Assembly: GCA_030765785.1 (NCBI GenBank)
Contig: JAVCCC010000056.1
Coordinates: forward strand, 1-52,928
Direction: 5' to 3'
Source of the DNA: Candidatus Aceula lacicola
GTDB taxonomy: Bacteria > Omnitrophota > Gorgyraeia > Zapsychrales > Aceulaceae
Length of the DNA: 52,928 bases
This document shows positions 41,207 through 52,928 of the stretch, one piece after another. The position numbers and the translations under genes are program-made. Below the pieces are notes generated by a model that saw only the letters and a program-made list of their open reading frames with translations, ran no database searches and was not told the origin of the DNA. Each line of letters begins with the position of its first letter. Position 1 is the stretch's first letter.

Positions 41207-42211
41207 TTAAATCTTGGGAGATGAGCAAGATTCGCGGACAACAAGCTCAGGGTCGAGCAAGCTTCTAACAGGCGTATGCCTGCGGCCACCGACAATCGCG
41301 TTAAGATGACGCACCGCATCTTCTGCCATCTTAAATAACGGCTGATGCATCGTTGTAAGACCAACGGAACCATATAAGCCACCTGGATTATCGTCAAATC
41401 CAATGACGGATAAATCTTCTGGAACCTTAAGACCTTTTTCAATGGCCACGTTAATAATTTCAAGAGCCATATCATCACTTGCTGAAAAAATAGCAGTAGG
41501 CTTATCTTTTAAGGAAAGCAGGTGCTCAAGCCCTAATCGAGCACTTCTTCGAGAATAATCACCTTCATAAATATAGTCATCGTTGATGGCGATATTTTTT
41601 TTCTTTAAAGCATCTTTGTAGCCCTGGAGTCTATGCAACCCGCTTTGGGTCTGAAGACTTCCGGTAACAGTGGCAATCTTTTGATGGTCAAGGCCAAGAA
41701 GATATTCTGTCGCTGTTTTGGCCCCTTTAACATTATCAACAGCAATATAATTGACCTTTAAATCTTCAACCACATTGTTAATAACCATGCATGGGATGCC
41801 TTCGGCAAGAGTAGCTTCGATTTGCTTACGGTTCTCAATGATGTCAGCAAAAATAACACCGCCAACATTGTTTGTATTGAGCGGGTTATACCCGTTAGTA
41901 ATATGAAAAATTAAATCAAGCTTTAGTGTTTCGCAGGCATGCCCAATGCCTCGAATAATTTCAATGGCATAAAACGAATGAAAAATGCCAGGGTATCCTG
42001 GCATGACAAGACCAACAGCAGTATTTAAGCCTTTAGCTAAACGCTGCGCACTAACATTAGGTTTAAAATTAAGGTGGGCAACCGCTTCTTCGACTTTAGC
42101 GCGATTTTTCTTGGAAACCGTTAAAACATTGTTGATAACACGAGAAACAGTGGTGATAGAAACCCCTGCTCGTGCCGCAACGTCTTCAATGCTGATTTTC
42201 TTTTTGCTCAC
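41207..42211 (-). CDS. LacI-family transcriptional regulator
   Basis: 334 aa. The N-terminal HTH reads SIEDVAARAGVSITTVSRVINN, the hinge helix PNVSAQRLAKG follows, and residues 60-330 are a sugar-binding periplasmic-protein-like domain (IIENRKQI, AVDNVKGAKTATEYLLG, FSASDDMALEIINVA, VIGFDDNPGG). It is probably a sugar-responsive repressor of the nearby glycan genes. The GTG start has no good Shine-Dalgarno and follows the coiled-coil gene by 15 bp, suggesting coupling. Confidence 0.93.
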   Translation of the reverse strand: MSKKKISIEDVAARAGVSITTVSRVINNVLTVSKKNRAKVEEAVAHLNFKPNVSAQRLAKGLNTAVGLVMPGYPGIFHSFYAIEIIRGIGHACETLKLDLIFHITNGYNPLNTNNVGGVIFADIIENRKQIEATLAEGIPCMVINNVVEDLKVNYIAVDNVKGAKTATEYLLGLDHQKIATVTGSLQTQSGLHRLQGYKDALKKKNIAINDDYIYEGDYSRRSARLGLEHLLSLKDKPTAIFSASDDMALEIINVAIEKGLKVPEDLSVIGFDDNPGGLYGSVGLTTMHQPLFKMAEDAVRHLNAIVGGRRHTPVRSLLDPELVVRESCSSPKI

Positions 42212-43684: not shown

Positions 43685-44317
43685 TTATTCGTATCGAATA
43701 TCGTCTAAATAAAATATACAATTTTCTGGGTTCACGTCCACATTCGTTGACCAGGAAAAACCGCCACTAACATAAGAAAGGTCTTTTCCTCTCAAATCAA
43801 CAACATATTGTTTCCATTCTGGCGTCAAAACAACAGGTCCAATAAACGCTGTGTCTGTGTCTGGATAATCCCCCGTGATACCACCCATCTTAAATTCTTC
43901 AATACGCTCGCCACCCTTTTCTCCTTTGGCCCAAAATGTTAGCTTAGTTGCCCCCTCTAAGTTATACCCGCCTTTTCGATTACCCCAATTATTAGCTGGA
44001 TTTTGCCAATAAACACCGACCCAGCGTGCCCCTTGTTTAGAGCATTCAACATCATAGGCGATGCGAAGACAAGTTCTCTCAGAATGACAATCTTCTATCC
44101 AACGATTAGAAAATTCGAGACATGACCCATCTGGCATAAAACCAGAAGGAACAAAATGATTGTCCCGAGAACCAATATTGGTATAAACAGGAAAAGGTTT
44201 AAAAGAATTTTCAGCCTTGGTTTGCACTTCTTTTTCTGCTGCAGGAGTCGATGGTTGACCGCATCCGATCACAACAACGCATAAGAACAGAAAAAGGGCC
44301 TTGAGAATCTTGTTCAT
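43685..44317 (-). CDS. lipoprotein with carbohydrate-binding-like domain
   Basis: 210 aa from ATG 44317 (AAGGGG ribosome-binding site). Signal with VVIGCGQP gives lipidated Cys19. The mature part resembles a CBM/galactose-binding beta-sandwich: LRIAYDVECSKQGARWVGVYWQ, ATKLTFWAKGEKGGE, EWKQYVVDLRGKDLS and the typical ending IFYLDDIRYE. Likely glycan-binding. It follows the double-module gene and ends at a strong hairpin. Confidence 0.78.
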   Translation of the reverse strand: MNKILKALFLFLCVVVIGCGQPSTPAAEKEVQTKAENSFKPFPVYTNIGSRDNHFVPSGFMPDGSCLEFSNRWIEDCHSERTCLRIAYDVECSKQGARWVGVYWQNPANNWGNRKGGYNLEGATKLTFWAKGEKGGERIEEFKMGGITGDYPDTDTAFIGPVVLTPEWKQYVVDLRGKDLSYVSGGFSWSTNVDVNPENCIFYLDDIRYE

Positions 44318-44390
44318 ACGTCCCCTTTCAATAAAGCCTTTTACATCTTTACTTGCCATGGAATTTTTTCTATCGCTTTAAGCGAAGAAA

Positions 44391-45245
44391 TTACATCTCT
44401 TCAATTTCAAGAAGTCTTTGCTCTGCGCCTTCAGCTGGTTTCCAAAACCATCCTTTAGGATCCCAGGCTTGTGCAAAATAATAATTGTCAATCAATTGAT
44501 TGAATGATATTTTTGCTTCTTCTGTCATACCGGCTTTCTTATAAGCATCGCCTTGAATAAAAAGACAAGTTCCAACGTCATTAAGAGCCCAATATGAAAA
44601 AATTTCCTCATTTGTTTCCCAAGGAAATTCTGTTAAAGAAGCTTGCATCTCTTTTGCTTTGGCACCATACAGTTTAATACATTTATTGGTATAAAGCAAA
44701 ACAGACTCTAGATCATCCGCTGCATAAGCTTCCCAGGCTTTGGTTGCAAGACCTGAAGAAGTGGAATCACTGAAATCTGCATCAAGACCAGCTTCAATCG
44801 CATCTAATTTTTCTTGTGCGGCTTCTGCTGGTTTCCAGAACCATCCTCCAACATCCCAGCATTGACCATAGGAATAATTGTCGATTAGCTTCTGATATGT
44901 TTCTTTGGCTTCATCCATCATGTTAGCTTTGCGATAAGCCTCAGCCTGAATAAAAAGACATGTGGCAACATCATTCAAAGCCCATTTCTTAAAAATATCT
45001 TCTTTTGGACCTTCAACGTATCCATCCATAGATGCTTGCATTCTTCTAGCTTTCTCGCCGTAAAGCTCAATACACTTATTTGTGTAGGCTAAAACAGCTT
45101 CGATGTCTCCTTTTGACAATGCATCCCAGGCCTTAGTCGCTAAGGTGACTGATCTGTAATCACCAAAGTTATACGCCGATGAGATCGCAGGACTGACAAA
45201 CCCAATACCCAAAATCAATAGGGCACAAATTAAGATTTTTCTCAT
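44391..45245 (-). CDS. secreted protein with two tandem TPR-like WALNDV/GWFW modules
   Basis: 284 aa. A signal peptide (to about residue 24) precedes two copies (36-152 and 167-281) of a 115-residue helical module. Each copy has ATKAW near its start, then CI.LYG.KA..MQAS, WALNDV.TCLFIQ.(D/E)AY, EAK, and WD..GWFWKPAE. The central part resembles tetratricopeptide helices, but the aromatic-rich block is distinctive. A third copy lies in the GH2-like enzyme next door. The module may bind a partner or a glycan; the function is not known. Confidence 0.72.
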   Translation of the reverse strand: MRKILICALLILGIGFVSPAISSAYNFGDYRSVTLATKAWDALSKGDIEAVLAYTNKCIELYGEKARRMQASMDGYVEGPKEDIFKKWALNDVATCLFIQAEAYRKANMMDEAKETYQKLIDNYSYGQCWDVGGWFWKPAEAAQEKLDAIEAGLDADFSDSTSSGLATKAWEAYAADDLESVLLYTNKCIKLYGAKAKEMQASLTEFPWETNEEIFSYWALNDVGTCLFIQGDAYKKAGMTEEAKISFNQLIDNYYFAQAWDPKGWFWKPAEGAEQRLLEIEEM

Positions 45246-45296
45246 AACCCACTCCTCCTTATTAATAGTTTATATTACTATATTTAACCTAATTTT

Positions 45297-45317
45297 AAAA
45301 AGTATAGCATACTTTTT
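45297..45317 (-). promoter_or_regulatory. extended -10 promoter overlapped by a 21-bp palindrome
   Basis: Arms AAAAAGTAT/ATACTTTTT around AGC. The extended -10 TGCTATACT lies within (45301-45309). It precedes the double-module gene (ATG 45245) with GGAGGAG ribosome-binding site. The 11-mer TATGCTATACT recurs at 50812-50822. Confidence 0.6.
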
Positions 45318-45338
45318 CGCACTTTGCCGAAAATTTTA

Positions 45339-47669
45339 CTAATTCCAGACACTTTTATAATAATCATACACTTTGCGCAAATGGCGCAAAAATGGACTAT
45401 TTTTGCCATTTCCTTGGCCTGTTAGGCCAAACCATTCCTCATACATATAGCCATCTGGAAAAGGACCCAAGGCACCTGCGGTTTTGTCATGAAATGCCGG
45501 CTCATAATTCTTCCACCACTCATCAATCCACTGAAAAACAACACCTCCAATGGCATTTCCTACGCCATCCGCTGTTCCGGCTGAATTCAATATAATATCA
45601 CTCCAAGCCCCATTATGGTAATCCGCCTGTGCCTGCTCTGCATCTTCACGACTTAAGTGATTGGCATAAGCCGGACAACCATATTCCGTAATAAAAGCAG
45701 CTTTTCCAGAAGCATCAAAAACTTGATCCCAATAAGATCCAAACCCGTAATCGCCACGATAAGCATTAGCTGCAAACGCATCGACCGATGGACAATTCTC
45801 TGCAAAAATATCTAAGAAAAGCGTGTCTCCATTAGATATCGCCACAGGGTGATTCCTATCAATGCTCTTAATCATCTGCGCAACTTCTTCAACAAAGGCA
45901 TAATAAGCATGCGGTTTTTTATCTGCATTGCATCCTAAACCATAATTATTTTCATTGCCTAAAAGCCACATCAGAATATACGGCTCATCTTTGAACTCTT
46001 CAACCATCTTTCGAACAGATTCCAGCATAGTCTTCTTATGCTCTGGATTTTCATAATCTGTTCCTTCAAACCATGTCGCACCAGAACCAAGTGCATATTT
46101 TCCTAAGAAATCTCCCATAATCACCATGATGCCGTAATCTTCATACATTTTTCGAAGAAGTTCTTTGTTAGGATTATAAGGTTGCTTATAAACGCGTATC
46201 GTATTAACACCCATATCTACCAAAAGCTGAAAATCACCAACAACGGGTTCGTCCTCATCTTGAATATTATTTAAGTTTTTATCCACCCAAGAATCATAAG
46301 GACCATCAGCAAGACCATTATGATTAATGTCCTCAATCATCCAATCAGCCAATGTTCCCTTGTCAGGACTTTGCCCAACTTTTGTGGCTTGATAGGTCAC
46401 AGCCTGAATCATAAAAGGTTTGCCGTCGACCAAAAGTTGCCAATGGCCTGTCTCCGCACATTGAATAAGACGCACCTTTTTACCGCCAATTGATTTTTTA
46501 AAATTCTTGATACGACGATCACAAGTTCTTTTTGCAAAGAATGATTGAAACTTTTCAACAACTTTATCCCAAAATGTTTTTTTGCGCAAAGTTCCAGGCC
46601 ATGTCAAAACAATATCGTTAGCGATATCATTATCGAAACCGTTTATGACTTGAATTTTAGCATCTTCATATTTCAGATCCAGCTCTGGATGCACTTTAAT
46701 AATATGTCTAATTTTTGCAATGGCAGCCTGCCCTGGATACCAAGGCGTGTTCCAATATGTTCTTCCTACGGAAGACGGAAAATGAATCTGAATCGCACGA
46801 TAAGCTTTAAGCGCATCATAAATCATATCCGCTTTCTCAAGAATAAGCCCGAGATAAAAAAGCTTAACACCCTGCGGTTCCGACGCCGTTGCCCATTTAT
46901 AAAAAGCTTTCTGAAGATCATCAGTCTGAACATAATCCCAATGGCTTCTCGATAAAGCACCTTCTTTCTGAAATTTTCGATACATTGGATCTTTTAAGAC
47001 ACCACTTGTATTTGGATAAATGCCTTCACCAATAGCCTTCATTAGCCCGGCAGGATCATCCATAACGTATTGATAATCTTTTGTTCCAACATTTTCAAAA
47101 TGACCGTATTTCTTATAATCAATCACTTCTTCTGTGCCAGGAAATGCAAGCGTTGGCATTGTTTTAGATCCACGATCAATCTTAATTTCCTTTTTCTCCT
47201 CTTCTTTTCCTCGAAGCTTATCTACACTTGCCTGGCTTTTTTCAGCCACCGACCAATACCACCCTCGAGGATCCCAAGACTGTGCCCAAAAATAATCATC
47301 AATCGCTTGCTGAAAAAGCTCAATGGCTTTATCTATTTCTCCTCTATTCATCAAAGCTTCTGCATGAATAAATAAACATGTGGCAACATCATTAAGCGCT
47401 TTGTACTCATCCTCTGTCCCCTTAAGAGGAAAAGCGGTTAATGTTGCCTGCTGTTGCTTGGCTTCATCGCTATATTTCTCAACACACTCTGTGGTAAGAC
47501 GTTCAATCTCTTCAAAATTTCCGCTTGAAGACGCTTCCCACGCCTTCGGAACATAGTCTTGAAAGGTTAATACTTGCGCAAAACTGCTTGTGACAGTTAA
47601 ACAAAAAATAAAAAAAACGAATGTCCGAAATAAAATGGACGGGCGATTTGAAAATAATATTTGTTTCAT
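45339..47669 (-). CDS. secreted GH2-like glycosidase with N-terminal WALNDV module and EF-hand-like loop
   Basis: 776 aa. The signal peptide ends SSFA. Residues 34-152 are a diverged copy of the neighbour's module (YKALNDVATCLFIHAEAL, SWDPRGWYWS). Residues 155-395 include a helical part and a linker. The catalytic TIM barrel (400-776) has candidate acid/base Glu573 in LLGNENNYG and nucleophile Glu662 in FITEYGCP, as in GH2/clan A. A calcium-loop-like insertion (447-475: DINHNGLADG and DKNLNNIQDEDE) sits before the barrel strands. The start shares one base with the MalG stop (TAATG). Substrate unknown. Confidence 0.85.
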   Translation of the reverse strand: MKQILFSNRPSILFRTFVFFIFCLTVTSSFAQVLTFQDYVPKAWEASSSGNFEEIERLTTECVEKYSDEAKQQQATLTAFPLKGTEDEYKALNDVATCLFIHAEALMNRGEIDKAIELFQQAIDDYFWAQSWDPRGWYWSVAEKSQASVDKLRGKEEEKKEIKIDRGSKTMPTLAFPGTEEVIDYKKYGHFENVGTKDYQYVMDDPAGLMKAIGEGIYPNTSGVLKDPMYRKFQKEGALSRSHWDYVQTDDLQKAFYKWATASEPQGVKLFYLGLILEKADMIYDALKAYRAIQIHFPSSVGRTYWNTPWYPGQAAIAKIRHIIKVHPELDLKYEDAKIQVINGFDNDIANDIVLTWPGTLRKKTFWDKVVEKFQSFFAKRTCDRRIKNFKKSIGGKKVRLIQCAETGHWQLLVDGKPFMIQAVTYQATKVGQSPDKGTLADWMIEDINHNGLADGPYDSWVDKNLNNIQDEDEPVVGDFQLLVDMGVNTIRVYKQPYNPNKELLRKMYEDYGIMVIMGDFLGKYALGSGATWFEGTDYENPEHKKTMLESVRKMVEEFKDEPYILMWLLGNENNYGLGCNADKKPHAYYAFVEEVAQMIKSIDRNHPVAISNGDTLFLDIFAENCPSVDAFAANAYRGDYGFGSYWDQVFDASGKAAFITEYGCPAYANHLSREDAEQAQADYHNGAWSDIILNSAGTADGVGNAIGGVVFQWIDEWWKNYEPAFHDKTAGALGPFPDGYMYEEWFGLTGQGNGKNSPFLRHLRKVYDYYKSVWN

Positions 47670-48511
47670 TAACCGACGGCTCCTGCTGTTAGGCCTTTAA
47701 TAATATGTTTTTGCATAAACAGATACACCAAAACAACTGGCGCAACGGTAATCGTTAAGCCAGCCATTAAAAGAGGATAATCTACGCTATGCGTCCCTTG
47801 AAAAACCATCAATCCACGCTGCAACGGCATCAATGACTTGTCGTTTAAAAGCAACATGGCTAAAATATATTCATTCCAAACATTCAATGTATTAAAAATG
47901 ACAACAACCGCAATCGCCGGACGCGCCAAAGGCAATGCCACATGCAACCAAATGCCGAGCTTGCTGCATCCATCTATGCGAGCCGCATCCTCTAAGGCCG
48001 ACGGCATTTTATCAAAAAATGTTTTCATTATATAAATACTCAAGGAAAGTCCGACATTAATCATACATAAAATATATCCAATGCGCGTATTCACAAGATG
48101 GAGCTTGTTCATCAAAACATAAAGCGGAACGAAACTCCCTGGCAAGGGAATCATCATCGCTGCCAAAAACATATAAAAAAGAAAATTGCTTCCAGGAAAT
48201 TTTAGACGAGAAAAAGCATACGCGGCTAAGGACGAAATCAAAACAATACCAAAAACAACGCATACTGTGTAAACAACGCTGTTGATAAAATACATACCAA
48301 AGCCACCCTTTGTCCAGGCAAGATAAAAATTCTGAAAATGAATTGTGCTTGGGATAAGTCCTTTATCGACAAATATCGTCTGATTAGTCATTAATGCCGA
48401 ACGAAACATCCAAATAAATGGAAACAAACATGTCATGGCTACAGCCATTAAAAATGTATGCACAAAAATCGAACTTATTGTTTTAGTTATTTTATAGCGA
48501 TTAATACTCAA
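47669..48511 (-). CDS. sugar ABC transporter permease, MalG-like
   Basis: 280 aa, six helices. The EAA loop is LEDAARIDGCSKLGIWLHVALPLARP. It starts with TTG at 48511 behind AGAGGT, 14 bp after the MalF-like gene. It belongs to the CUT1 family for oligosaccharide import. It ends overlapping the GH2-like start by one base. Confidence 0.93.
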   Translation of the reverse strand: MSINRYKITKTISSIFVHTFLMAVAMTCLFPFIWMFRSALMTNQTIFVDKGLIPSTIHFQNFYLAWTKGGFGMYFINSVVYTVCVVFGIVLISSLAAYAFSRLKFPGSNFLFYMFLAAMMIPLPGSFVPLYVLMNKLHLVNTRIGYILCMINVGLSLSIYIMKTFFDKMPSALEDAARIDGCSKLGIWLHVALPLARPAIAVVVIFNTLNVWNEYILAMLLLNDKSLMPLQRGLMVFQGTHSVDYPLLMAGLTITVAPVVLVYLFMQKHIIKGLTAGAVG

Positions 48512-48525
48512 CAGTGGACCTCTTT

Positions 48526-49452
48526 TTATTCTTGCTTAGCTTTCTTTGATATTTTATTAAGCATAAATGAGCCAATCATCAAAATCAAACCAAATACAAT
48601 GCCTTGCGCACAAGCATAGCCAAACCGACTCATTCCTGTCATAGACGCTAAGATACGCGTAACGGGAACTTCCGTATGATAAACCAATCCCTGGCCAACC
48701 ATCGAAAGCACCAAGACAAAAACCTGCATCGATCCTAAAATTGTTAAAATCATAACCATAACGAAAACCGGAACCATCATAGGAACGGTTATATTCTTAA
48801 ACGTACTAAAGACGCCTGCTCCGTCAACATGAGCAGCCTCATAAAGCTGACGATCAATCGTTTGCAAGCCTGCCAATAAAATAATAAATCCCCATCCAAA
48901 TCCTTTCCAGCTATGGACAACGGCGATACACGTCAAAGCGGTGTCAGGATCAGATAACCAATTATGAACAAGATGATTTAAATGAACTTTCGTAAGAAAA
49001 TAATTTAAAAGACCAATCGGTTTCCCGGATTGCATTCCAGAATTTAAAATCCATTGCCAAATTAAACCAACAACAACTTCAGATAAAACAGGTGGAAGAT
49101 AAAAAACAATACGATAAAATTTACGCATGCGAATATCGCGATCACACGAAAGAGCAAGCGCAAAAGCCAACATGTTCTGAAAAGTAAGAGCAATAAGGGT
49201 GATATATCCTGCATGCCCTATCGACGACCACCAGACTTTGTCTTGCATAATTTCTTTAAAATTACCAAGACCAATAAAGTCACGAGCTAAACTAATGCCG
49301 TTCCACTCATGCATGGACAAGTTTAAAATTTCAAAAAATGGATAAATATAAAAAATAGAAAAAATCACAACTGCGGGCAGGATAAACAAATAATTTTCAG
49401 CAACGCCTTTAAATTCTAAAAACGAAAATTTATCAAACACTCTGTTCTTCAT
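48526..49452 (-). CDS. sugar ABC transporter permease, MalF-like
   Basis: 308 aa, six helices. The EAA loop is LYEAAHVDGAGVFSTFKNITVP. It overlaps the binding-protein gene by 4 bp (ATGA) and precedes MalG. It forms the other half of a CUT1 channel in the inner membrane. Confidence 0.93.
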   Translation of the reverse strand: MKNRVFDKFSFLEFKGVAENYLFILPAVVIFSIFYIYPFFEILNLSMHEWNGISLARDFIGLGNFKEIMQDKVWWSSIGHAGYITLIALTFQNMLAFALALSCDRDIRMRKFYRIVFYLPPVLSEVVVGLIWQWILNSGMQSGKPIGLLNYFLTKVHLNHLVHNWLSDPDTALTCIAVVHSWKGFGWGFIILLAGLQTIDRQLYEAAHVDGAGVFSTFKNITVPMMVPVFVMVMILTILGSMQVFVLVLSMVGQGLVYHTEVPVTRILASMTGMSRFGYACAQGIVFGLILMIGSFMLNKISKKAKQE

Positions 49453-50762
49453 TGTCTCATCGATCTCTTTTTAACTTTTTCTATCTCACGAACTTTAACT
49501 TCTTGAACAGCTTGAGCCACTTCTTCAGGCGTTTTTTCGCCAATGATAATCGACTGGATTCCCTTGTCAAATGTCTCAGAAACTAAAGGATTTTCATTGT
49601 ATTTCCAAATAGAAGGATGTGTCGTTTCATCCATAGCGCTCGCGAATTGCGAAAGGATTTCTGGAATAGCGGACAGCGCATATCGGTTAGCGGGTAAATT
49701 CTTTGTTTTTTTGGATAAAAAAGCTTGCTGATCTTTTGCGGTAAGCCATTTTAAAAAATCAATAGCTTGTTGTTTATTTTCCGAAATACCATTAACCACA
49801 AATGATGACCCTGCTCCCCCCCAAATGCTCATCGGTCTTTCTTCGTTGATAACAGGTGGCAACATGACTCCATAATTTAAATCTTGATTCATGTCGTTGT
49901 AGACATTCACACACCAGGATCCATTAAATGCAAAAGCAGCGCGACCTAATGCAAAATCCTGTTCGGCATATTTATTGCCTTTGGCAACAATGCCCTTAGC
50001 CAAGGCATTATTTTTGCGCAAAACTTTAAATATGTTAAAAACTTTTATCCAATCTTCATCTGTATAAGGAACTTCACCTCTATATGTTGCCATTATTTTT
50101 TCTTCACCCATAATATTAAAGGCATAATTCGATGCAAAACAATCAACCATCCAAGTCTCCCCCCATCCCGAGACAAGCCCTTCAATCCCAATACGATTCA
50201 GCGTAGAAATATTTTTAATAAATTGCGCAAAAGTTTTTGGGTAGCCCTTAATGCCAGCTTTGGTCAAAAGATCTTTATTGTATAACATTTGAATATTCGT
50301 GACATCAATGGGCACTCCATAAATACCTGGCTTAACGTTATAAATATTGTCTTCTTTAAACCGATTCACATTTAATGCTTTTTCAAAAAGACTTTTTTCC
50401 CAAGCTCCTTCGCTCGCATTAAAACTTTCAGTTAAATCAGCCACAAATCCACTATTAATAAACGCAGCTCGTTTTTTCTTTTCTCCCAAAATACCATAAA
50501 TATCTGGCAATACACGTGCTTGAGCCGCAGCAACAATCTTCTTAGAATACTCATCAGATGGCGCATATAACTCAAAGTTAACTTCAATTCCCGTTTGTTC
50601 TTTATATTGTTCGGCGAGTTCTACGAAGACTTCTTGGCGGTCAGTCATCCAGTGCCAAATATTAACAACATTGGCTTGATTTCCTTGTGAACATCCCATC
50701 AAGAAAAATGTGATACAAAAAAGAAATAAAAAGAGTTTTCTTATTAAAATTTCTGCCCCCAT
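49449..50762 (-). CDS. extracellular sugar-binding lipoprotein, CUT1 type
   Basis: 437 aa. Signal ends LMGCSQG with Cys24. The mature domain follows the MalE/MsmE pattern (VVNIWHWMTDRQEVFVELAEQYKEQ, FALGRAAFAFNGSWCVN, AIDFLKWLTAKDQQ). It captures an oligosaccharide in the periplasm for the MalF/MalG pair. The ATG at 50762 has no ribosome-binding site upstream; a GGGGG run lies just after it, so the true start may differ. It heads the operon under the promoter at 50812-50840. Confidence 0.92.
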   Translation of the reverse strand: MGAEILIRKLFLFLFCITFFLMGCSQGNQANVVNIWHWMTDRQEVFVELAEQYKEQTGIEVNFELYAPSDEYSKKIVAAAQARVLPDIYGILGEKKKRAAFINSGFVADLTESFNASEGAWEKSLFEKALNVNRFKEDNIYNVKPGIYGVPIDVTNIQMLYNKDLLTKAGIKGYPKTFAQFIKNISTLNRIGIEGLVSGWGETWMVDCFASNYAFNIMGEEKIMATYRGEVPYTDEDWIKVFNIFKVLRKNNALAKGIVAKGNKYAEQDFALGRAAFAFNGSWCVNVYNDMNQDLNYGVMLPPVINEERPMSIWGGAGSSFVVNGISENKQQAIDFLKWLTAKDQQAFLSKKTKNLPANRYALSAIPEILSQFASAMDETTHPSIWKYNENPLVSETFDKGIQSIIIGEKTPEEVAQAVQEVKVREIEKVKKRSMRQ

Positions 50763-51010: not shown

Positions 51011-52928
51011 TTGAAAACGCCTTATAAACACATGAGGTTGTTGCCTTATTGCGCAATAGCACTATGGGTATTTCTTATTTTCACCCCCTGCCCTACTTTT
51101 GCGGCAGATTCTTCAATGGATGTTGGCATCATACTTTATCAAAGAGGGAACTATGATGAAGCTTTGATGGAATTTCGAAGAATCCTAGCAACTAATCCCG
51201 ACAGCAAAGAAGCTCGAAAATATATTAAACTAGTCAGAACATCTAAAAATCTTTTGGAAGAAAAAACGAATCTTACGAAACAAGCTTCTCCTAAAGTCAA
51301 AAATATCAAAACACGTAAATCACAAACAACAAATGAGCTAGACGCACTTGAAAAAGAATATCTTAAAAAAAGACACCAAGATCTTGTTTATGCAACAGAA
51401 CCGGAAGAATCTGAAGAAATAATCGTTCCTATCGAAGAAGTCGAAATAAAACGCAGATCAAAACCCATCTCTCCTTTTGGCACCTTCTACGAATCCGAAA
51501 AAATATACGACGATGCTGTTGCAGAAGAATCAGATAAAACAGTGGAAATTCACGGCGAGATTCGCCTTGGCGTGGGATACGATGTTTCAAATAATGATTT
51601 TATTTGGAAAAGAGCCAACTTTGATTTAAATGAAAAGAATTGGCGTATGATTTCATGGAACCAACTTAACAAAAGAGTTGATACTTACGATCCAGGCATC
51701 TTTGACCGACTTAGTGTTGACATTGATGCCGATCCAAAAGATAGCAAGTTCTCTTATCATGCAAACATCACGGTTGATCCATGGAGCTATACTGGAAAAA
51801 CTCAAAAAGTGACTTTGCAGGGTGTTGGCGGCGACAGTGTTGATGTTCAATTCCTTTATTGGGGCAACAACGGGTATACTGTCAACAATGATGTTTTTAC
51901 TCTTGAAAACGGAGATATGATCGCTCTTCCAGAGCTCAAGGTTGTCAATTCCGTTCTTCCAGCTGGATCAGTCACATCAAAGTTTAATAATACTTTTAAT
52001 TATCCAGAAATGGAAGTAACAAACGATTTCTGGCCCTTAAGAGAATTCTGGGTTAATTACGAACCAACCGACGAAATTGCGCTTCAGGTCTTCCCTTATG
52101 CATTTGAAAACAAAGCCTTAAGTTCTAACGATCCACTTAGGCTATCAAACAATCATATCTGGTGGGAAGAAAGTCCTTGGATGAGAAACTGGTCACCTGG
52201 GCACATTAATGCAGGAGCAACTCCTGAAGATTTTATGAAAGGTCGATGGAATGGTGACCTTGCATTTCAAACACGCGATAGTGACGGAAAGCGTCTAACA
52301 ACACTTCGAGGTTTTTCTCTTAGCACAATTACCGACGACACAACAATGGATGTTGTCATCGCATCACCTAAAACATTGTGGCAAGACTATGAAGAAGTCG
52401 ACGCTATTCCAGGAAGCTTTCGCCTTCAGCACAATATCTCTGATAATCTTTATGTTGGCAACATCGAAAATATTCATCTTGGTCTTATTAACGGAAAGAT
52501 TGACACTTACAACGTTGTTACCGGCTACGACACTGGCTGGCTTGTAAATCCAGGACTCCAATTAAAAGCAGAATATGCTTTTTCTTTTTACGAACAAGAT
52601 CGATCTTTCCAAGACTATGACACGCGCAGTAATGGCAGCGCCTACGATCTTTCTCTCGTTGGATCTACTAATGATATTGAATCTCCAGGTGATGATTATT
52701 TAACAATTCAGCCAGAAGAAGATGATGATTATTTCTTTAAAACACAATTACGCATGACGCGTATGGACAATGGTTTTCAATCAAGTTTGGCAACTTACCA
52801 CGAAACTCGAGATGATCAATTCTGGAGTCGACACATTACGTTTCGCGAACCAATGGATTTTACTGACATTAAATATTGTGACATCGAACCGTTTCGCATT
52901 GGAAACAGTATTGATTACGGCCGTTACG
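51011..52928 (+). CDS. TPR and outer-membrane-type protein, partial at window edge
   Basis: Open for 639 codons to the window end, without a stop. It starts at TTG 51011 behind AAGGAG. A signal peptide ends PTFAADSS. One TPR-like hairpin (LYQRGNYDEALMEFRRILATNP) and a charged linker (to about residue 170) precede a beta-rich, aromatic region (FWVNYEPTDEIALQV, LQHNISDNLYVGNIENI, LQLKAEYAFSFYEQD) with alternating residues typical of outer-membrane barrels. It faces the glycan transporter operon divergently, which suggests a glycan porin or surface protein. The family is not recognised. Confidence 0.75.
   Translation, partial: MKTPYKHMRLLPYCAIALWVFLIFTPCPTFAADSSMDVGIILYQRGNYDEALMEFRRILATNPDSKEARKYIKLVRTSKNLLEEKTNLTKQASPKVKNIKTRKSQTTNELDALEKEYLKKRHQDLVYATEPEESEEIIVPIEEVEIKRRSKPISPFGTFYESEKIYDDAVAEESDKTVEIHGEIRLGVGYDVSNNDFIWKRANFDLNEKNWRMISWNQLNKRVDTYDPGIFDRLSVDIDADPKDSKFSYHANITVDPWSYTGKTQKVTLQGVGGDSVDVQFLYWGNNGYTVNNDVFTLENGDMIALPELKVVNSVLPAGSVTSKFNNTFNYPEMEVTNDFWPLREFWVNYEPTDEIALQVFPYAFENKALSSNDPLRLSNNHIWWEESPWMRNWSPGHINAGATPEDFMKGRWNGDLAFQTRDSDGKRLTTLRGFSLSTITDDTTMDVVIASPKTLWQDYEEVDAIPGSFRLQHNISDNLYVGNIENIHLGLINGKIDTYNVVTGYDTGWLVNPGLQLKAEYAFSFYEQDRSFQDYDTRSNGSAYDLSLVGSTNDIESPGDDYLTIQPEEDDDYFFKTQLRMTRMDNGFQSSLATYHETRDDQFWSRHITFREPMDFTDIKYCDIEPFRIGNSIDYGRY

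Follow-up and report, generated by a model that had tools for sequence, protein, structure and literature searches.

At least six bacterial phyla have an exported module of about 117 residues on a TPR-like scaffold that is either fused to a β-glucan-cutting enzyme or encoded immediately next to one. We regard it as an accessory domain, secreted or periplasmic, that serves to break down β-glucan and most likely binds β-gluco-oligosaccharides or β-glucan (probability about 0.55). The module was followed up from a stretch of 52,928 nucleotides of Candidatus Aceula lacicola (Omnitrophota), here called the window, for which a first-pass annotation had suggested a co-assembly or glycan-binding module shared by an exported protein and the adjacent glycosidase. 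This interpretation is partly supported: its general direction is upheld and can be sharpened to β-glucanases, mainly of family GH158.

All module copies of the window are encoded on the minus strand. An exported protein of 284 aa (44391..45245) is composed of a signal peptide and two tandem modules, copy 1 (residues 32–149; 44799..45152) and copy 2 (residues 163–280; 44406..44759), and TPR_6 is its sole Pfam match. The independent profile A4, built without any window sequence, detected the two copies with 163 and 162 bits, respectively (E = 5e-49 and 1e-48 when the whole genome was searched). At 117 residues in length they share 59% identity (Z = 63, from 1000 shuffles), in agreement with the earlier description of a unit of about 115 residues occurring twice in one exported protein. 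A diverged third copy had been proposed for the N-terminus of the adjacent glycosidase and was indeed recovered there by profile A4 (residues 41–151; 47217..47549; 120 bits, E = 3e-36), with 43–45% identity to copies 1 and 2 (Z = 40–42 against shuffles). The glycosidase itself (45339..47669) is an exported protein of 776 aa, in which signal peptide and module are followed by a TPR-like and β-rich middle part and a GH-A TIM barrel. Signal peptides of the Sec type were read by eye on both proteins. An iterative profile proposed a fourth module at residues 225–323 of the glycosidase; since this candidate was missed by the independent profile and barely exceeded shuffled sequences (Z = 1.9–3.8), we count three modules in the window.

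The first-pass annotation had described the module as TPR-like and as lying outside the named families. The first part is borne out by the match of the 284-aa protein to TPR_6 (PF13174; E = 7e-14, 51.9 bits at a Pfam cut-off of 26.3) and by consensus TPR proteins being the nearest neighbours of the module in both PDB sequence and Foldseek searches. TPR_2 was matched at E ≤ 0.001 by 28 of 46 diverse modules. The second part holds outside the TPR portion: no Pfam family beyond TPR was matched by these 46 modules from many phyla, a search of the module against NCBIfam gave nothing above cut-off, and the defining signatures WALNDV and CWDPKGWFW lie outside every named family of both libraries. These two motifs are conserved from phylum to phylum. 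Seven columns are invariant in the 46 copies (W9, N60, A82, Q97, D100, G103, W106) and a further set is nearly so (L59, D61, V62, T64, W99, W104, F105).

AlphaFold2 modelled the two-module protein, aligned with 73 relatives, with a mean pLDDT of 89. In the predicted order of elements, helices lead into a β-hairpin that carries the C-W-D..G-W-F-W motif, and a last helix closes the module. Structure prediction, proposed earlier as a check, thus yielded a helical domain that includes a β-hairpin and is predicted with confidence, and no good match among solved structures: Foldseek of the two-module model against the PDB returned zero matches at E ≤ 0.001, with query TM-scores of at most 0.34. The likeness to TPR proteins is limited to about 30 residues, a helix-turn-helix that matches TPR profiles. 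A TPR superhelix is made of consecutive repeats of about 34 residues, whereas the module is a fixed unit of about 117 residues with one TPR each, followed by the hairpin and a helix, and with invariant signatures. None of the libraries searched has a name for the module, yet it is built from a known repeat type.

For the catalytic domain of the window glycosidase (residues 398–776; 45342..46478, minus strand), PDB sequence and fold matches indicate a distant relative of GH158. The best PDB sequence match is a GH158 enzyme (E = 3e-17, with only about 130–140 residues aligned), as is the best fold match (Foldseek 2e-12, TM normalised to target 0.52); fungal GH72 glucanosyltransferases are likewise close. 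The AlphaFold2 model of the glycosidase reached a pLDDT of 83 and a pTM of 0.79, and its barrel has the acid/base and nucleophile Glu residues at β4 and β7, as expected for clan GH-A. N572-E573 and E662 are invariant in 31 relatives and align with N136-E137 and E220 of BuGH158, which are essential in that enzyme (PMC7157763). Fold, acid/base N-E and nucleophile E are common to the window domain and the GH158 structures (BuGH158, 6pal; GH158(Pro), 9oro). The window enzyme differs from these in bearing the N-terminal module and in matching over the short stretch given above. In Pfam, GH2_C (1e-12) scores higher than GH72 (4e-7; 30.0 bits at a cut-off of 25.9). We do not name the enzyme a β-galactosidase or β-glucuronidase after GH2_C, because it stays far below the NCBIfam cut-offs for GH2 and comes closest in fold to GH158. 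We take it for a very divergent GH158 or, more probably, a member of a sister family. Its most likely substrate is β-1,3-glucan; a mixed-linkage or other β-glucan is possible.

Glycosidase and two-module protein belong to an operon on the minus strand with the order solute-binding protein, two permeases, glycosidase, two-module protein, lipoprotein, coiled-coil protein and LacI regulator. The solute-binding lipoprotein (49449..50762) is of the oligosaccharide type (SBP_bac_8, 2e-31; oligosaccharide-binding proteins of the PDB, 7e-20), and the two permeases (47669..49452) resemble those of MalFG/UgpAE-type sugar ABC importers (BPD_transp_1; PRK10973, 5e-34; PRK10561, 3e-26). A LacI-family regulator (41207..42211; Peripla_BP_3, 2e-29; LacI, 1.5e-17) ends the operon. 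The gene that follows the two-module protein encodes a conserved, secreted lipoprotein with the lipobox VIGC (43685..44359; 30 members in the loci studied). Rich in invariant Trp and Gly residues, it accompanies the module protein in most Omnitrophota loci and occurs in Auribacterota as well. It matched nothing in the PDB and, above cut-off, nothing in Pfam, and an assignment to a CBM family is supported by neither source. On the plus strand a divergent gene (51011..52927) encodes a protein that is TPR-like at its N-terminus and has an extended β-rich region; it could be an outer-membrane porin, and relatives occur in loci L031, L038, L039, L061 and L105.

The same gene order, including the position of LacI, is kept in Omnitrophota relatives, often with a GH94 phosphorylase in front. 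The two-module protein has relatives in 52 of 54 genomes, which nearly all belong to the taxonomic order of the window. Nearly all genomes sampled around this order carry module proteins, 1.5-Mb genomes among them. The glycosidase lies just upstream of the module protein in 19 of the 27 loci L031–L057. In the phylum as a whole the module is present in 132 of 236 genomes, that is, in about half. Beyond the order of the window, the matches mostly come one per ORF of about 760–860 aa, which is the size of the glycosidase. The GH94 partner in Omnitrophota is nearer to cellobiose phosphorylase (3e-144) than to laminaribiose phosphorylase (4e-38), and for this reason the glucan linkage in this phylum may be other than β-1,3.

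A scan of GTDB genomes detected the module outside Omnitrophota in Auribacterota, Verrucomicrobiota, Planctomycetota, Lentisphaerota, Gammaproteobacteria and Myxococcota. Except in Auribacterota, the proteins that carry it there are usually short and have a single module, and are secreted or of the lipoprotein type; in 17 of 22 such loci an endo-β-1,3-glucanase of GH158 is encoded at a distance of at most 1.8 kb (this count includes one GH158 fragment at a contig end, confirmed at 2e-31). The association with glycosidases elsewhere, the absence of which had been named as refuting the earlier proposal, thus extends far beyond this genome. In 12 of the 17 loci GH158 directly follows the module gene, downstream and in the same orientation, and pairs of a single-module gene and GH158 are found in Verrucomicrobiota, Planctomycetota and Gammaproteobacteria. 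The neighbouring GH158 of locus L088 is genuine (9oro, 7e-90; 6pal, 8e-63), and the remaining ones align with it at 46–93% identity. Several single-module proteins have lipoprotein-like N-termini (L080, L081, L091, L097, L102).

Partners of the module are not restricted to GH158. In four Opitutales loci the module is N-terminal to a PF11790 (GH128-type) domain (8e-50), and in a myxobacterial genome it precedes, in trans, a GH30 whose best NCBIfam match is endo-1,6-β-glucanase. Some loci further contain a GH149 β-1,3-oligosaccharide phosphorylase (7e-281), a GH3, a GH16, two GH17 or sugar transporters. The relatives of the paired glycoside hydrolases act on β-1,3- or β-1,6-glucan. Several other arrangements were observed. 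A GH99/GH71-like protein stands in front of the module–GH158 pair in three planctomycetal loci (L085, L087, L100). Multi-module proteins are adjoined by enzymes of about 1200 residues in L061, L064–L066, L068, L071, L082 and L106; these have two GH-A catalytic domains, one GH158-like and one of the window type. In Cerasicoccus (L086, L095) the module is adjoined by a protein of about 1225 aa without a Pfam family and with a start like that of pilin-type secretion substrates.

Co-occurrence was quantified in 188 genomes from one class of Verrucomicrobiota, that of the cultivable Cerasicoccus. The module is present in nine of them (eight with strong matches) and GH158 in 29, and all eight strong-module genomes have GH158 (Fisher p = 1.3e-7). 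In seven of the eight, module and GH158 are less than 2 kb apart on one contig. As the GH158 profile was built from module-adjacent GH158s, genome-level co-occurrence could be inflated, yet this bias leaves the physical adjacency unexplained.

In Auribacterota the module forms tandem arrays of up to eight copies per protein, with 23 and 43 copies in the two genomes G054 and G055. Most array loci that were read lack a GH neighbour. Behind one array (L070:4925-8260) come relatives of the window lipoprotein, with a LacI nearby; TPR Ser/Thr kinases and FHA-sigma54 regulators are encoded in the vicinity of the arrays in L067, L069 and L072. A tree of 66 modules, with few columns and without resolution of the deep forks, groups the glycosidase N-terminal modules in one clade (support 100/98) and the GH128-fused modules in a separate one (100/99). 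The existence of two supported clades indicates that fusion of module and GH happened independently at least twice. In the main Omnitrophota group copy 1 forms a clade (99/96) apart from copy 2. The tandem pair is hence old: its main lineages, copy 1 and copy 2, parted before the order diversified.

Given its fusion and adjacency to β-glucan-cutting enzymes, the module is probably a helper that keeps hold of the polysaccharide, or of the enzyme, while digestion proceeds. Binding of β-glucan is judged the likeliest role because the module tracks β-glucan enzymes and not one enzyme family, because it is exported, present in cis and in trans and arrayed in Auribacterota, and because it keeps aromatic and amide or acid residues that are typical of sugar sites. 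The conserved set W9, N60, D61, Q97, W99, D100, W104, F105 and W106 includes polar residues for which a TPR core has no need, and a sugar-stacking site may be formed by the conserved W, N, D and Q residues that surround the helix with WALNDV and the hairpin with CWDPKGWFW. The polymer would thereby be kept at the glucanase, in cis by the module within the glycosidase and in trans by the two-module protein. The ABC importer would take up the oligosaccharides set free, and a GH94 or GH149 phosphorylase would split them. The Auribacterota arrays would suit multivalent binding.

The ligand could also be a protein. TPR domains usually bind proteins, and a TPR-like fold would be suited for an adaptor that docks the enzyme, or for a folding or assembly partner, either binding the GH itself or linking GH, lipoprotein and importer at the envelope. 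Such a function agrees with the single short module gene that stands side by side with one GH gene in most genomes outside Omnitrophota, and membrane anchoring would be fitted by the lipoprotein-like single-module proteins. Moreover, every paired catalytic domain is a clan GH-A barrel, so that genomics alone cannot separate glucan binding from enzyme binding. Nevertheless, we consider this explanation, the main rival, less likely than glucan binding: fusions in cis join the module to two distinct GH families, Auribacterota have arrays of up to eight modules without a neighbouring GH, and a dedicated chaperone would hardly stay covalently attached to the mature enzyme. Occurrence in cis and in trans, with several GH families and in tandem arrays, moderately favours substrate binding over enzyme-specific assembly.

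The kinases and FHA/sigma-54 regulators near the Auribacterota arrays might point to a structural or signalling repeat of the envelope that has no direct role with glucan and shares its location with GH genes through common regulation. This is improbable: it hardly accounts for a GH158 within 2 kb of the module in seven of the eight genomes of one class that have it, or for modules joined directly to catalytic domains. Least of all do we expect an ordinary TPR protein with signatures due to lineage drift and tandem copies due to recent local duplication. TPR_6 does score above its Pfam cut-off; against drift stand WALNDV and CWDPKGWFW, kept across phyla, and the seven invariant columns in 46 diverse copies, and the split between copy 1 and copy 2 (copy 1 clade 99/96) predates diversification of the order.

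The preferred reading, a β-glucan-binding module, has parallels among known non-catalytic glycan-capture proteins, which its working probably resembles. SusD is a non-catalytic partner of glycoside hydrolases with a TPR-like helical scaffold. In the β-1,3-glucan locus of B. uniformis, GH158 is paired with surface glycan-binding proteins (SGBPs; PMC7157763). The module shares the TPR-like scaffold with SusD and the pairing with GH158 with the SGBPs, and differs in that the module protein is small and single-domain. The module is not a member of the SusD family by any search: there was no Pfam SusD match, and SusD was absent from the PDB sequence matches and the top 50 folds. No SusC partner was seen among the neighbour proteins that were identified, and none of the 80 listed module loci belongs to Bacteroidota. 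Most CBMs are β-sandwiches or β-trefoils. Like the module, CBMs are discrete and non-catalytic, GH-fused or free, and sometimes tandem, and the linkage to a carbohydrate-active enzyme that characterises them is found in the module N-terminal to the window GH and to GH128-type domains. None of the CBM profiles in Pfam and NCBIfam matched the module. By comparison with these systems, it is most likely analogous to SusD or CBMs and not homologous with them. That it founds a new carbohydrate-binding module family on a TPR-derived scaffold, acting in cis and in trans with β-glucanases of several phyla as a non-Bacteroidota counterpart of the SusD type, we propose tentatively and at slightly less than even odds.

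GH158, tetratricopeptide and laminarin did not occur together in any paper of the library searched, and the words glycoside, CAZyme and glucan are absent from a survey of Omnitrophota (PMC10066038). If it binds glucan, the module would be a helical newcomer among binding modules that are mostly β-sandwich CBMs, and it would serve as a marker for β-glucan loci in phyla without SusCD. In Omnitrophota, where it mostly forms the N-terminus of a glucanase-type enzyme, its spread among uncultured members suggests that they rely on β-glucan, or on a glucan like it, as a core resource.
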